Source: an uncultured Mycoplasmatota bacterium
GTDB lineage: Bacteria; Bacillota_I; Bacilli_A; Mycoplasmatales; Mycoplasmoidaceae
DNA length: 64,000 bases
Direction: 5' to 3'
NCBI GenBank assembly: GCA_949517355.1
Contig: CATDIL010000005.1
Span: 1 to 64,000 of the forward strand
Of this stretch, positions 5,455-14,867 are shown piece by piece. The notes below the pieces were generated by a model, which was not told where the DNA came from, ran no database searches, and saw only the letters and a program-made list of their open reading frames with translations. Positions within the stretch are counted from its first letter, which is position 1; each line of letters starts with the position of its first letter. Both the position numbers and the translations under genes were made by a program.

Positions 5455-6573
5455 ATTTAAAAATAATTTATCTTTATAATGATGAATTTTACTATGGGAA
5501 TATGCATCAATATAAATCATGTTTTCTCAACAATCAATTAATTTTCATTGTTCTGCTGTATCAGCTTGCTCAAGAGGAACGATATGATGGAGATTAAAAC
5601 CTGGTTTTTTTTCTATTTCGTGCATTTGCATATATTTTTTCTTTTCTATTAAACTTCTACCCAAATTTTTCTCAGAATCAACAACACCACCTTTTCCAAT
5701 TCTAATAAATAAATTATAATTATTATCCTTTTCAAAATGCGCAGTTAGTGCTAAAATGTTAATAATTTGTTGTGCTTCATTTTTTCAATTATGTCAATCT
5801 CTATCTAAATCCTTTGATAAATTATATTTTTTTCTATTTGCATGGCACTCCTTACAATAATTTTTTATTGCAGTAATAAAAGCACATTTTTTAAATTTAT
5901 TTAATTTTTGATATTCAATTAAATAATTTTTAATGTTATCTAATGTGTATTTTTTTTCTGAGAAAATTTGATCAATTCCTGTTAAAAATAACATTCAAGT
6001 TTCAGGAGAAAATTTAGCTTTAACTTTTTCTAATGATTCACAAAGAATATCAAATATTTTAGTAAAATATCCATTCATCAAACGTTTGATACAAATGCTA
6101 AATATTATTAGTCTTTCATCAGCATTTTTTTCTAATAATTTTTTTCCTAATTTACTTATTCTAACAAATTTTACTGATTGTTTTTTTTGTTGTTCATTTA
6201 TAAGAATAAAGTTTTTATTAAATCTTTCAATTAGTCCCATTCGTGCAAGGTCTGGAAAAATATTTTTTTTAATTGTATTAAGAGTGCCACTATTTAGAGT
6301 GTCTTTTATATTTTGAACAAATTTTCTATATTTATCTATAGAACATTCATATGACCCAGTATCATCTCCTACTAAAATTTCCATAAAGTCTTCAGAAGAG
6401 GTAAAATTATTTAGTTCAGTGAGTATGCGAATAATCATATTTAAATTTCATCTGTTATGTTGAGAAAAATGCAATCCTCTATAATTTTTATCTAGCAACC
6501 TATTTTTGATAAAAATTGGGATTTTAGATTGAGGTAAGCAAATTCGTTCTAACTCTTTAATTAATTTTTCCAT
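5452..6573 (-). CDS. HNH restriction endonuclease of the two-methyltransferase R-M system
   Basis: 373 aa with TGA-Trp codons at 5995 and elsewhere. ATG at 6573 overlaps the preceding methyltransferase by 17 bases, so they are translated from one transcript. The N-terminal two thirds looks like a DNA-recognition region (helical, with ARMGLIERFNKNF winged-helix-like text). A CxxC near residue 240 (YCKECHANRKK) precedes an HNH site near 329-365 (HHIVPLEQ, ENMIYIDAYSHSKIHHYK). HNH nucleases of this layout next to DNA methyltransferases are typically Type II restriction enzymes; specificity cannot be read. A probable one-base frameshift removes about 50 C-terminal residues beyond the HNH site, so activity is uncertain. 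Confidence 0.7.
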
Positions 6574-7327
6574 TTTTTATGTTTCTTAAAATATTTTTAT
6601 AAAATAACTTATTATTTTCGCACCCACTACAATTTATCCCTAATTTATTGCAAGCAATTATTGTTTGACCAGAGCCCGAAAATAGATCTAAAACTATTGA
6701 GTTTTTATTTGCAGATGCATTCAAAATTCTTTCAATCATTGCTTGTGGTTTTATTGTTGGATGAGAGAGTTTTTTTGTCTTTCCATTAATTTTTTTGCTG
6801 TGTCGTTCAGATGAAAATTCTCAAACATCTGTACATAATTTTCCTTTTGGATTAGGTTTTCAATATTTTCCTTGCTTAGTTTTTATTCCTAAAGAATTTG
6901 AAAGCCTTTGCTTTGATAAATATGGTATTCTAACATTATCAAAATTGAATATTTTAGGATTGCCGTTAGACATAAATAAACATGTCTCTTGGTTGTTAAC
7001 AAATTTATTCTTAGAAGGATGAAATCCATCTTTTTTATATCATGTAATTCAATTGTTAAAAGTTAACTTATTTTTTAATAAATTTAAAGTTATGGCAGAA
7101 TTAAATTGATTGTTAAATATATATATGGATGCACCAATTTTCATTTTTTGAATACATAATGAAATTCATTTTTTCATAAACATTCAATATTGATCTTGAG
7201 AATCAAATTTATCTCATTCATCAATTCCAATGTTATAAGGTGGATCAGCTATTATTAAATCAACACTCTTATCCTTAATTGTGTTTAAAAATTCAACAAC
7301 ATCCATTAAAAATATTTTATTTTTCAT
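6557..7327 (-). CDS. DNA adenine/N4-cytosine methyltransferase B (DPPY class)
   Basis: 256 aa. Catalytic motif DPPYNIG lies at residues 28-34 and SAM-binding motif LDLFSGSGQT near 213-222, with catalytic before SAM motif, i.e. the beta-class order. HPTIKPQAM before motif I is typical of amino-methyltransferases that make N6-methyladenine. The start ATG at 7327 overlaps the stop of methyltransferase A by 11 bases, and its own stop overlaps the endonuclease start. The tight overlap of two methyltransferases and one nuclease suggests a system with an asymmetric recognition site, one enzyme per strand. That is inference. Confidence 0.85.
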
Positions 7328-8141
7328 AAACTTTTTTATTGATTACTGGTTTGTAATTTTTATAAATTTCATACCCTATAAAATTTCTATTATTATTTTT
7401 TGCCGAAACTAATGTTGTTCCACTTCCTGCAAACGGATCTAATATAGTGTCACCTATAAAAGAATATAACTTTATACATCTATTGGCAATTTCTATTGGC
7501 ATAATTGCACAATGTTTTCCAAATGCTTTATCATTTCTATTTGGGATAGGGATATTTCAAATTTGACTTGTAAATCTTAATCAATCACTTTGTGTAATTT
7601 TCGATTTTTCTTTAATTGTTTTACTTACTTTTTTTGCTTTACCAGGTTTAACATAAACTGAAATAAATTCAGTTGTATTTTGTGCATAAAAATTTGATGG
7701 ATATGGATATGAACCAAACATTAATCGTTTAGTAGAATTAATTCTATTTCATATGTACAAATCAAGCAAATTAAATCTTGTATTAGTAAGAATAGAATGT
7801 TGTATTTCTGCTTGTAAGTCATATATTGTTCTGTTATGGAATCTATTATCATATTTTTTTAAAATTGGAATTAGAGGAACATTTATGCAAATTTTTCCAT
7901 TTGGTTTTAAAACTCTATAACATTCTTTTCATACAGGTAAAAGTTTTTGAATATATTTATTAAACTTTTTTGCATAACTTACATCTTTTTTTAAAACTGA
8001 AGAATGTTTTGTTTTTTGGTACCCATCATATGCATAGTTTTTTATATTAAAATAAGGAGGGGAGGTAACTACTAAATCAACACTGTTATTTTTTAATTCC
8101 TTCATTTTTGATGAGTCTTTATAAAAAACAACATTTATCAT
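7317..8141 (-). CDS. DNA methyltransferase A (TSPPY class)
   Basis: 274 aa. TSPPYFNIKNY at residues 26-36 is the catalytic motif of amino-methyltransferases (SPPY is common in N4-cytosine enzymes) and LDPFAGSGTT near 234-243 binds SAM, again beta-class order. It is the first gene of a three-gene R-M operon (7327 and 6573 follow with overlaps). ATG 8141 was chosen because an in-frame TAG lies five codons upstream. Its leader is peculiar: an AGGAGGGG ribosome-site-like element is separated from the ATG by a perfect hairpin, and a (CT)8.5 repeat lies further up. Confidence 0.85.
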
Positions 8142-8180: not shown

Positions 8181-8215
8181 CCCCTCCTACACTAAAAATA
8201 ATTAGAGAGCAGTTA

Positions 8216-8232
8216 CTCTCTCTCTCTCTCTC
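8216..8232. repeat. Dinucleotide microsatellite (CT)8.5 in the R-M operon leader
   Basis: Seventeen bases of perfect CT/GA repeat lie 75 bases upstream of methyltransferase A. A small frame starting ATG at 8263 (minus strand) reads through it as RERERE and stops immediately after at 8213-8215. Adding one repeat unit would instead extend that frame to the hairpin by the methyltransferase start. Such repeats change length by slippage. Confidence 0.75.
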
Positions 8233-8619: not shown

Positions 8620-9798
8620 TTAGCTGCAAAATTTTTGATATTTCAATAATTTGTTTTTTTCAAATGTTTTAATATATTCATTAATGTAATATTGGCGACA
8701 CGAATTTAATGAATTTGTTGGTATTTTTTTGTGTTCGCTTAGCATTAAAAGAATTCATTTTTCAACAATTTGCCAAGAATTAATTTTTTGTAGTTCTCCA
8801 TTTACTTTTCAGTATATTTTTTTATCATCATAATTTTTATGAAGTTGAGTAGGCAACGGCATTATATTATTTTGATCTGATATTTCATTTAAATGTCTTG
8901 CTCATTGATTTCTTTGGGTTGTAAAACATTTTTGTCTTGACATATAGACTGGATATATGTGAGCTAATTGGACTTGATTTCCACTATGATATTTTTCTCA
9001 AAAATTCATATAAAACTGATCTCTGCTACCTACATTTTTTTCTAATTCGCATCTCTTTCTTCTTACTAATATATCTAGATCTTGTTTAATTCTTATTTGT
9101 TTAGTATTTCTTTCTCTTCACCTTTTTAGCTTATTTTTCCATTGCCAAACAGTATGCCCTTCAATGTTGAATCATTCAAAATTATCAATAAATTCCGGAT
9201 TCCTATTTACTATTCAGTCATTAAATGAGTATTGATTTATGTTAACACATTGAACTTTTTCAAAAAGTAATTTACTTTCTTCTAAAGAAAGAATTAATGA
9301 TTGAATGAATGAAGCAAATGCATATTTTTGATTTCTATAAAAAATTTTAAATTGTGCTTTTTTTGGAGAGCCCTCTTCTCCTGATGAATTACTACCAAAA
9401 AGAATGTAATTTATACTTTTTAATGTTAATCTTTCTGTTTTTAAATGTTTATTAAAAATATTATTTAATTTTTTGATTTGTTCAATATTTAAAATTTTAT
9501 GAGTTTTTCTATGTTCACTGGCACTATAATGTGGCAATCCTAATTCTTTTAATATCTTATCTCTAAATAAAAATCAAGATTTTTTAACATTTTTTCCTTC
9601 AAAATGTTTTGCTGTAGTTGTTAATTGAATGCAAACTTTTTTAAATTCTATTCTGAAATCATGGATTAATTCTTGATTATCAAAAAGGAATTTAAATGTT
9701 CCTTGTGTCTCTTGACCTTTATAAACATTGTATACATCTAAAGTTACTACACTTGGATCATATTCATCAATTAATTCTTGAATTTTTGAATCATTCAT
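8620..9798 (-). CDS. HNH-like restriction endonuclease partner of the cytosine-5 methyltransferase
   Basis: 392 aa with several TGA-Trp codons but also TGG-Trp codons, unlike most neighbours. ATG 9798 overlaps the methyltransferase stop by one base (TAATG), so the two form an operon. The C-terminal third (about 275-335) contains VQLAHIYPVYMSRQKC followed by NQWARHLNEISDQNNIMPL and QLHKNYDDKK. The AHI...N...H..yD spacing matches HNH-type nuclease sites. The N-terminal half has no motif I recognise. Assigned as the restriction enzyme from the motif and coupling to the methyltransferase; family and specificity are unknown. Confidence 0.65.
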
Positions 9799-10808
9799 TA
9801 AATTATCACCTCTTTTAACATTTCATCTATTTTTTTAGGTTTATTTGTATATGGAGTTAATGAAAATTTTTTACATTTAAATTTATTGTGTTTTTTTTGA
9901 TAATTTTGAAATTGATTAATTATTTCTATTAATAATTTTGATGGAACTTTTGAACGCTCCATTGAATTTTTTTTGTAAATTATTTTAAGTGTTATTTTTT
10001 TATTAAATTTTTTAGAAAGTTTTTCTTCTATTCATTTTCTTCGTTTTTCATCTTTAATATTGTTTTTACATGCTCCAGATAGCGTTAACACATATTCATT
10101 TTTTGAAACTTGGAGAATGTTAGCCCCCACACTAGATTTTTTTAATTTTAGATTAACATTTGATAAAAAACCTGTAGGTTTTTTGCTAAAAGTTTTATCA
10201 TATGCAGAATAATGTGAAATATGAACTTTTCCAGATTTAAACCCTAAATTGTGACGTATGTATTTTCACATCATGGATTTTGCTGGATTTTCTATATATC
10301 AACATTTTGGTTGAAAATAGCATATAAGTTTAATTGCATTTTGACAACATCTTTCACCTAATTCTGATACATATTTAGGTACGGACTGTGAACCATTTGG
10401 ATAACTGTTACCAGAAAAACCATTTCATCTAATATTTTTGTTCCTTGGTCACCTACATATTTTTTTCTTTTCATAATCTCAGTAATGGTGCGGATTTCCA
10501 GAAAAATAGTTACCTTTTGAATCTTTAAGATTAGAAACTGATTGCATTGCAACGCTAAAAGATTGGCAAAGTGGAGAACAAACAATATAATCTGGTTTTT
10601 GTATTTTTCCTGATTTAATTAATTTATCAAATTTTTGTTCTATGTTATCAGTAGCTAAATCAAAGACAATATTATTGAAATTATTTGATTTAGGAACAAT
10701 ATCAAAAGTGTAAACTGAAAAATTAGAAAGTTGTTTGCTTTCTTTTAGTGCTGAACGAAGGGAGTTCAGCCCCCCCCCTCAAAGATCTCAGATTACTGTT
10801 TTTTTCAT
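9798..10808 (-). CDS. DNA (cytosine-5) methyltransferase with G9 tract in motif I
   Basis: 336 aa once TGA is read as Trp; under the standard code it looks shattered. Motif I is VIWDLWGGGLNSL at residues 5-17, with DI at 36-37 as the acidic SAM-contact region. The catalytic motif IV is CSPLCQSFSVA with Cys81, then YIENPAKSMMW as the ENP/ENV motif. This resembles phage-type C5 enzymes. The three glycines of motif I are encoded by GGGGGGGGG (C9 on the plus strand, 10770-10778). With 9 G the gene is in frame; 8 G or 10 G would stop within about 15 codons. It is the first gene of an operon with the HNH-like nuclease at 9798. Confidence 0.8.
10770..10778. repeat. G9/C9 homopolymer inside the methyltransferase gene
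   Basis: Nine consecutive C on the plus strand, by far the longest G/C run seen in this A+T-rich window, at codons 11-13 of the cytosine methyltransferase. Homopolymeric G tracts are the standard slipped-strand switch in phase-variable methyltransferases of other bacteria. Confidence 0.85.
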
Positions 10809-10903
10809 CCTTATAAATACTATTAGTAATTATAAATATAAACAAAATGAACTAGAATAATATTTGTAATTATTAATAATATAATACTATCTAATAATAT
10901 TAA
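10809..10903. promoter_or_regulatory. Divergent promoter region between R-M operon and PFOR
   Basis: Ninety-five A+T-rich bases between divergent ATGs. A TATAAT box at 10880-10885 is well placed for the plus-strand PFOR gene. On the minus strand an AAGGATG sequence supplies a ribosome site for the methyltransferase. Confidence 0.5.
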
Positions 10904-14410
<3,507 letters not shown>

Positions 14411-14417
14411 TTAAAAA

Positions 14418-14867
14418 CTAACAATTTTCTTCGTATTCACTAATTTTATTGATTCTTTTTAAATGTCGATCACCATTAAATGTGGCATTTAAAAAGTTGT
14501 TAATAATTTGAATATTAGTATCAAGATCATTAAATCTAGCTGATAAACATAAAACATTAGCGTTATTGTGTTCTACACCTAATGCAGCAGTTTCTGGTTT
14601 ATAAACATTAACTGCTCTAATTCCTTTAACTTTATTAGCAGCAATTGTCATTCCAAAACCGGTTCCACAAATAAGAATACCAATTGCATTCTTTGCTAAT
14701 ACTTCTTTACACAACTTAAATGCATAGTCAGGATAATCCACTGATTCATTAGAATCAGTCCCTAAATTTTCATACTTTATTTGTTTTTGATCAAAGTATT
14801 TACAGATGTTTTTTTTCATTTCTGTTGCTGCATGATCATTAGCAATAATAATTAATTTTTGATTCAT
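14418..14867 (-). CDS. rpiB: Ribose-5-phosphate isomerase B / LacAB-family sugar-phosphate isomerase
   Basis: 149 aa, normal family length. The ANDHAA start (ligand-binding Asp-His), the GTDSNESVDYPDYA segment and ICGTGFGMTIAANK with the catalytic Cys are diagnostic. It interconverts ribose 5-phosphate and ribulose 5-phosphate. It is divergent from the PTS operon and shares a 27-base palindromic control region with it, suggesting co-regulation. The stop lies eight bases from the PFOR stop (convergent). Confidence 0.9.
   Translation of the reverse strand: MNQKLIIIANDHAATEMKKNICKYFDQKQIKYENLGTDSNESVDYPDYAFKLCKEVLAKNAIGILICGTGFGMTIAANKVKGIRAVNVYKPETAALGVEHNNANVLCLSARFNDLDTNIQIINNFLNATFNGDRHLKRINKISEYEENC

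Follow-up and report, generated by a model that had tools for sequence, protein, structure and literature searches.

A poly-G tract in motif I of a mollicute C5-cytosine methyltransferase-like gene as a probable switch of a restriction-modification pair

Background

Several mollicute DNA methylases are known whose genes contain a frame-disrupting repeat tract. In Mycoplasma agalactiae a CpG methyltransferase (MAG4250/MAG4260) has a poly(G) tract of 6-11 residues, the length of which varies within a strain as determined by fragment analysis; this methylase has been called an orphan and no restriction partner was listed for it (PMC9465063). Two further cases belong to Type III systems, namely MmyCI of M. 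mycoides, whose mod gene contains a repeat tract (PMC3498834), and a mod gene of Ca. M. girerdii, which is controlled by a G(8) tract (PMC5476646). Here we describe a pair of genes on the minus strand of a 64,000-nt stretch of DNA from a mycoplasma of the gut (hereafter the window; Table 1). The first gene resembles the C5-cytosine methyltransferases and has a run of nine G right within its cofactor-binding motif; a nuclease gene follows directly downstream. We consider it likely that the whole constitutes a restriction-modification operon in which the tract acts as a slipped-strand switch, turning the two genes on and off together. The individual parts of this explanation differ in their strength and are treated separately below.

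Table 1. Features of the gene pair and of the second restriction-modification cluster in the window
Feature	Position	Strand	Remarks
C5-cytosine-methyltransferase-like gene, 336 aa	9798..10808	-	translation table 4; PHROG_2882, E 1e-34
G9 tract	10770..10778	-	codons 11-13 (Gly-Gly-Gly), motif I; G8 in sister species
Motif IV, SPLCQSFS	10554..10577	-	Cys81 invariant in 26 relatives
Motif VI, IENP	10284..10295	-	I172-P175 invariant in 26 relatives
Intergenic region, 95 bp, shared with divergent pyruvate:ferredoxin oxidoreductase (PFOR) gene	10809..10903	-	presumed operon promoter region, by position
HNH nuclease gene, MAG4270 family (NF045952)	8620..9798	-	147.9 bits, cut-off 53, residues 27-375
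HNH catalytic region of nuclease	8839..8961	-	H280, N311, H320 invariant in 26 relatives
GAGGTGAT, Shine-Dalgarno-like site of nuclease	9805..9812	-	within 3' end of methylase gene; fold z-score 0.38
Second cluster: two N6/N4 methylase genes	7317-8141, 6557-7327	-	
Second cluster: Type II-like REase gene	5455-6573	-	PDLC03506

A divergent C5-cytosine methyltransferase-like protein with a tract in motif I

The methylase is named by neither Pfam nor NCBIfam, and profile searches detected no match to PF00145 in this protein or anywhere else in the genome. It is matched by PHROG_2882, a family annotated as DNA methyltransferase, and by phage genes annotated as C5 methylases, with the best phage proteins being ~29% identical to it over 90%. 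The members of PHROG_2882, which is its closest named family, are C5 methylases of phages (Streptococcus and Lactococcus phages), whereas the window methylase is a bacterial gene; a search of viral contigs recovered neither relatives of the methylase nor copies of the tract with its flank. The signatures SxxCQSFS and IENP are invariant across 26 relatives and are located where the C5-cytosine methylases have motifs IV and VI, supplying both the catalytic cysteine (C81) and the Glu-Asn dyad (E173-N174) of these enzymes. An AlphaFold2 model (pLDDT 78) recovered DNMT1, MET1 and M.HaeIII as its best matches in the PDB (E 2e-5 to 4e-4), which is consistent with a Class I methyltransferase fold of the DNMT1 and M.HaeIII type, albeit with a TM of only ~0.35. 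The initial annotation had called the gene a C5 methyltransferase, and this call is backed by the motifs, the phage homologues and the fold, even though PF00145 yields no match. We take the protein to be a divergent branch of the C5-cytosine methyltransferases, named through PHROG_2882 alone and with predicted activity.

The tract, which appears as C9 on the forward strand, codes for the glycines G11-G13 in the N-terminal sequence MKKTVIWDLW-GGG-LNSLRS, where TGA is read as Trp. In the AlphaFold2 model these glycines form a loop between a strand (residues 4-9) and a helix (residues 17-23), as expected of motif I. No other run of seven or more G or C is present in the window, the second-longest run being of 6; none of 100 dinucleotide shuffles of the window gave a run of 8, and extrapolation from the observed run lengths predicts 0.004-0.03 runs of at least 9 per 64 kb. 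Codon usage points in the same direction: GGG accounts for 5.9% (51/860) of the glycine codons of the window, such that three GGG codons in a row would arise with a probability of ~2e-4 by codon usage alone, i.e. about 2 per 10,000 glycine triplets. We then varied the length of the tract in silico. With G9 the frame is open and codes for the full-length methylase. Loss of one G (G8) brings a stop after 20 codons and gain of one (G10) a stop after 28, respectively 7 and 15 codons beyond the tract; G6 and G12 are again open, with one glycine fewer or more. A restart of translation downstream of the tract is an unlikely means of rescue: the first in-frame ATG 3' of the tract is codon 88, and since this follows Cys81 no active enzyme would result. 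These measurements confirm the tract as described in the initial annotation, including the statement that a change to 8 or 10 G stops translation within about 15 codons.

Variation of the tract among relatives and in a sister species

We searched 320 genomes of the order, recovering relatives of the methylase in 66 of them, and compared the glycine codons in the best 29 sequences with a readable GGGxNS motif, the window copy included. Mixed GGN codons (e.g. GGT GGT GGT) are used in 22 of these 29 and poly-G runs of 7-9 residues in the remaining 7. The protein therefore does not require the poly-G run, since mixed codons suffice in those 22. On a maximum-likelihood tree the poly-G homologues fall in three separate places, for which three gains, or one gain followed by two losses, are possible histories. 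The open and observed tract lengths of the seven genes are 9/9, 9/8, 9/8, 9/8, 9/9, 8/7 and 10/9, respectively; hence five of the seven are out of frame, each short of its open length by one G. Every species is represented in this count by a single assembly, usually a metagenome bin, where homopolymers may have been miscounted. Among the 22 tractless genes a single one is interrupted (L027; Fisher p = 0.001, with shared ancestry left uncorrected). The relatives with ordinary glycine codons furnish a natural control, which is rare in claims of phase variation that are based on sequence.

The most direct comparison is with an uncultured Mycoplasmatota bin (G275), a contig of which (CATAWQ010000032.1) aligns with the window over 6,454 bp. 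This alignment contains 240 substitutions and a single gap, which corresponds to one G of the tract, i.e. G8 in G275 against G9 in the window. All 240 substitutions are confined to 2,579 bp (window 12241-14819); from 12240 down to 8365, where the G275 contig ends, the two sequences are identical over 3,875 bp except for the one G, and this block contains the whole pair. Given that their identity elsewhere in the genome is 87-88%, the two organisms represent different species. The break in identity between this contig (G275:C32) and the window lies inside the PFOR gene, and a recent transfer by recombination in this neighboring gene, followed by one slip, is the likely origin of the arrangement. 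The identical 3.9-kb block could also stem from a chimeric G275 contig, though a G8 copy exists even then. Because there are no substitutions in the pair, dN/dS between the window and G275 is unusable for these genes. The difference of one G in 3.9 kb fits a defence operon that was recently shared between species and whose state has flipped since. The locus thus displays two hallmarks of phase-variable genes: repeat length opens (G9) or closes (G8, G10) the frame, and relatives differ in tract length against an otherwise conserved sequence (one G in 3,875 bp; five of seven off). On these sequence comparisons, the tract is very probably a contingency (phase-variation) switch of the methyltransferase.

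Other repeat tracts in the genome

The entire 636-kb genome contains only four runs of seven or more G, all of them 8-9 residues in length. Of the other three, a G9 run (G000:C2:57704; L141:2705) breaks a PAPS-reductase-like gene in two (frames of 137 and 292 aa). The gene that follows closely downstream is of the GmrSD_N (DUF262) type and at least 648 aa long, and together the two are a candidate switchable defence pair that is off in the assembly. A G8 run (G000:C3:49179; L142:2680) separates the signal peptide from the remainder of an Ig/BspA-LRR surface protein, which is likewise off, and a PAP2-family gene has a further G9 run (G000:C1:162058; L140:2559) at its 3' end. No fewer than three of these four runs look like contingency loci. 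Additionally, the window has a second restriction-modification cluster, likewise on the minus strand (5455-8141; Table 1), and a (CT)8.5 repeat (8204-8232) precedes it by about 75 nt. The repeat overlaps a terminator-like hairpin and might serve as a further switch, at the level of a leader or a promoter.

The nuclease partner and its possible coupling to the tract

The start codon of the downstream gene overlaps the stop codon of the methylase by one base (TAATG). Its product exceeds the curated cut-off of NF045952, whose members are annotated as putative restriction endonucleases, is also matched by HNH_2 in profile searches, and retains the conserved HNH residues. No significantly similar protein of solved structure was found by sequence, nor did its fold significantly match any in the PDB; the best fold match, the HNH nuclease VcaM4I (E 0.046, local only), was rejected as too weak. 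The adjacency of the two genes and the families to which they belong suggest that they form a putative Type II-like restriction-modification operon.

We also read the 30 best loci with NF045952 members (L042-L071). The methylases upstream are M.SssI-like by their motifs, one member having been tested against PF00145, and are referred to here as the PF00145 group. In 29 of the 30 loci the nuclease starts between -22 and +5 nt from the stop of the upstream methylase. Of the 28 scorable methylases 8 are open, whereas in 20 the frame breaks at a repeat (G6-G11 or a dinucleotide), each of these being restored to at least 396 aa by one or two repeat units. By contrast with these interrupted methylases, every one of the 30 loci has an open nuclease frame. 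Were the nuclease to act unchecked once its methylase is off, its gene would be expected to disappear, and the intact genes thus count indirectly toward silencing of the nuclease along with the methylase.

Gene order provides a further clue. Within the WDLFGGG group the tract-bearing methylase has its nuclease downstream in all six resolved loci (five of the MAG4270 type and one McrB-like), whereas among the 12 tractless pairs an HNH-like gene from a different family is located upstream in 10 loci and downstream in 2, Pfam HNH being confirmed for just one of them, a downstream gene. The association between tract and gene order (Fisher p = 0.0015) is confounded by shared ancestry. A nuclease-first pair would be expected to go without a switch, because its methylase going off would kill the cell. 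The pattern suggests a testable rule, namely that a switch is tolerable only where the methylase comes first. The McrB-like case (L134; G256:C14) is a poly-G methylase with G7 and an open length of 8; downstream of it come an McrB-like AAA gene and a gene that is maybe McrC-like (no family match), so that the switch goes with more than a single type of nuclease.

Tract-bearing methylases were also encountered in other settings. The methylases of a third group, with WALYDD as motif I, have N-terminal (GA)n tracts coding for RERERE, and a MAG4270-like nuclease often lies downstream of them (L097, L098, L105, L108, L109, L124 and others). One contig from a bin assigned to the archaeon Ca. Methanovirga aequatorialis (L093; JAITEE010000213.1) reads TGA as Trp and encodes a WDLFGGG methylase with GGT codons and a mid-gene (AG)10 tract that closes the frame, along with a nuclease resembling the MAG4270 type; it is probably a misbinned mollicute contig.

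The initial annotation had proposed that slippage would toggle the methyltransferase and, by coupling, the nuclease. Its first half, the switching of the methyltransferase, is well supported across genomes by the optional poly-G run, its occurrence in three places of the tree, the five of seven copies that are off and the one-G difference from G275, while the coupling of the nuclease is unproven. In favor of the latter are the overlapping start, the intact nucleases and the methylase-first order of the tract-bearing pairs; against it stand the nuclease's own Shine-Dalgarno site and the want of Rho. Two routes by which the tract might govern the nuclease were rejected. A hairpin hiding the nuclease start is not indicated, as the local structure is ordinary (z-score 0.38). 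Rho-dependent polarity was dismissed as well: the genome search found no true Rho, only weak sub-cut-off matches to two genes sized like F1-ATPase subunits. We nevertheless lean towards a nuclease that is silent or inactive whenever the methylase is, through either translational coupling or a need for the methylase protein.

Alternative explanations

The main competitor of this joint switch is one that affects the methylase only, with the nuclease being translated independently and harmless alone, because it needs a methylase subunit, is weak or has some other role. The nuclease does have a strong Shine-Dalgarno site of 8 nt (GAGGTGAT in the window and AAAGGAGGTGA in G253), its start is not hidden, and nuclease genes remain open in methylase-off genomes. 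But the placement of the starts in 29 of the 30 PF00145-group pairs resembles translational coupling, and tracts are absent where the nuclease comes first, such that we regard this alternative as rather unlikely, if worth keeping in mind. It would also be conceivable that the tract sets dosage, with RNA polymerase or ribosomes slipping in a programmed fashion so that G8 and G9 both yield some enzyme. The frequency of off-frame tracts, the conservation of the sequence 3' of them and the G8 copy of G275, which is free of other damage, would all suit this possibility. Yet the identity of the G275 copy may just reflect recent transfer, tract and open lengths vary by species as DNA slippage predicts, and the known mollicute cases work by DNA slippage (PMC9465063, PMC5476646), making the programmed process improbable.

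The remaining two alternatives deny that there is a switch at all. The three glycines might simply happen to be encoded by GGG, given that the motif needs them; the scarcity of GGG codons and the small number of such runs expected per window, the mixed codons in relatives and the recurrence of poly-G in seven homologues at three places of the tree render this barely credible. Homopolymer runs are error-prone and the poly-G relatives are mostly metagenome-assembled bins, and therefore the off-frame relatives might be miscounted homopolymers and the tract in reality constant. Such an artefact is quite improbable in light of the in-frame window copy, the tract being the sole indel in 6.45 kb against G275, the nearly always open frames of the tractless relatives, and the real poly(G) variation established in a mollicute methylase by fragment analysis (PMC9465063).

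Proposed mechanism and comparison with known systems

In the switch that we favor, the G9 form would yield an active methyltransferase that presumably methylates DNA. A slip of one G in either direction would end translation 7-15 codons downstream with loss of the catalytic part, and further slips would restore the frame; slippage is presumed to be frequent within a clone. The nuclease might be made or active only with an open methyltransferase frame, as suggested by the methyltransferase-first order and the overlapping start.

Phase-variable methylases are well known, and the window pair departs from them in its methylase family, in having its tract within motif I and in its nuclease partner. 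MmyCI and the Ca. M. girerdii mod gene share with the window a frameshifting tract in a mollicute methylase gene, and Ca. M. girerdii further resembles the source organism in possessing PFOR. However, both are Type III systems with a restriction subunit, whereas the window has C5-type motifs and an HNH nuclease in place of the DPPY-type motif and Res helicase-nuclease of Type III mod/res pairs. The M. agalactiae system is closer, being likewise a mollicute C5 methylase with a frame-toggling poly(G), but there the tract sits mid-gene in an M.SssI/CpG-type methylase, while the window methylase belongs to another family, falling outside the PF00145/M.SssI type, and has its tract in motif I.

The nuclease family links the two systems further. 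NF045952 is named after MAG4270, a number adjacent to MAG4260. A MAG4270-family nuclease lies directly downstream in related loci of the M. agalactiae type, as in the window; in one genome (G073) an NF045952 member follows an interrupted G6 methylase by 1 nt (L064). The best-scoring NF045952 members that were found adjoin M.SssI-type methylases, whereas the window member adjoins another methylase family. There is, in our estimate, an even chance that this reflects a general mollicute design, in which a MAG4270 nuclease is placed behind unrelated C5 methylases (PF00145/M.SssI, WALYDD and WDLFGGG), many with slippery tracts that gate both methylation and restriction. If so, the "orphan" CpG methylases, the M.SssI-like ones included, would be halves of restriction systems. 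The MAG4270-type nuclease is a candidate restriction partner for those mollicute CpG methylases that have been regarded as orphans (PMC9465063), among them the group of the laboratory enzyme M.SssI.
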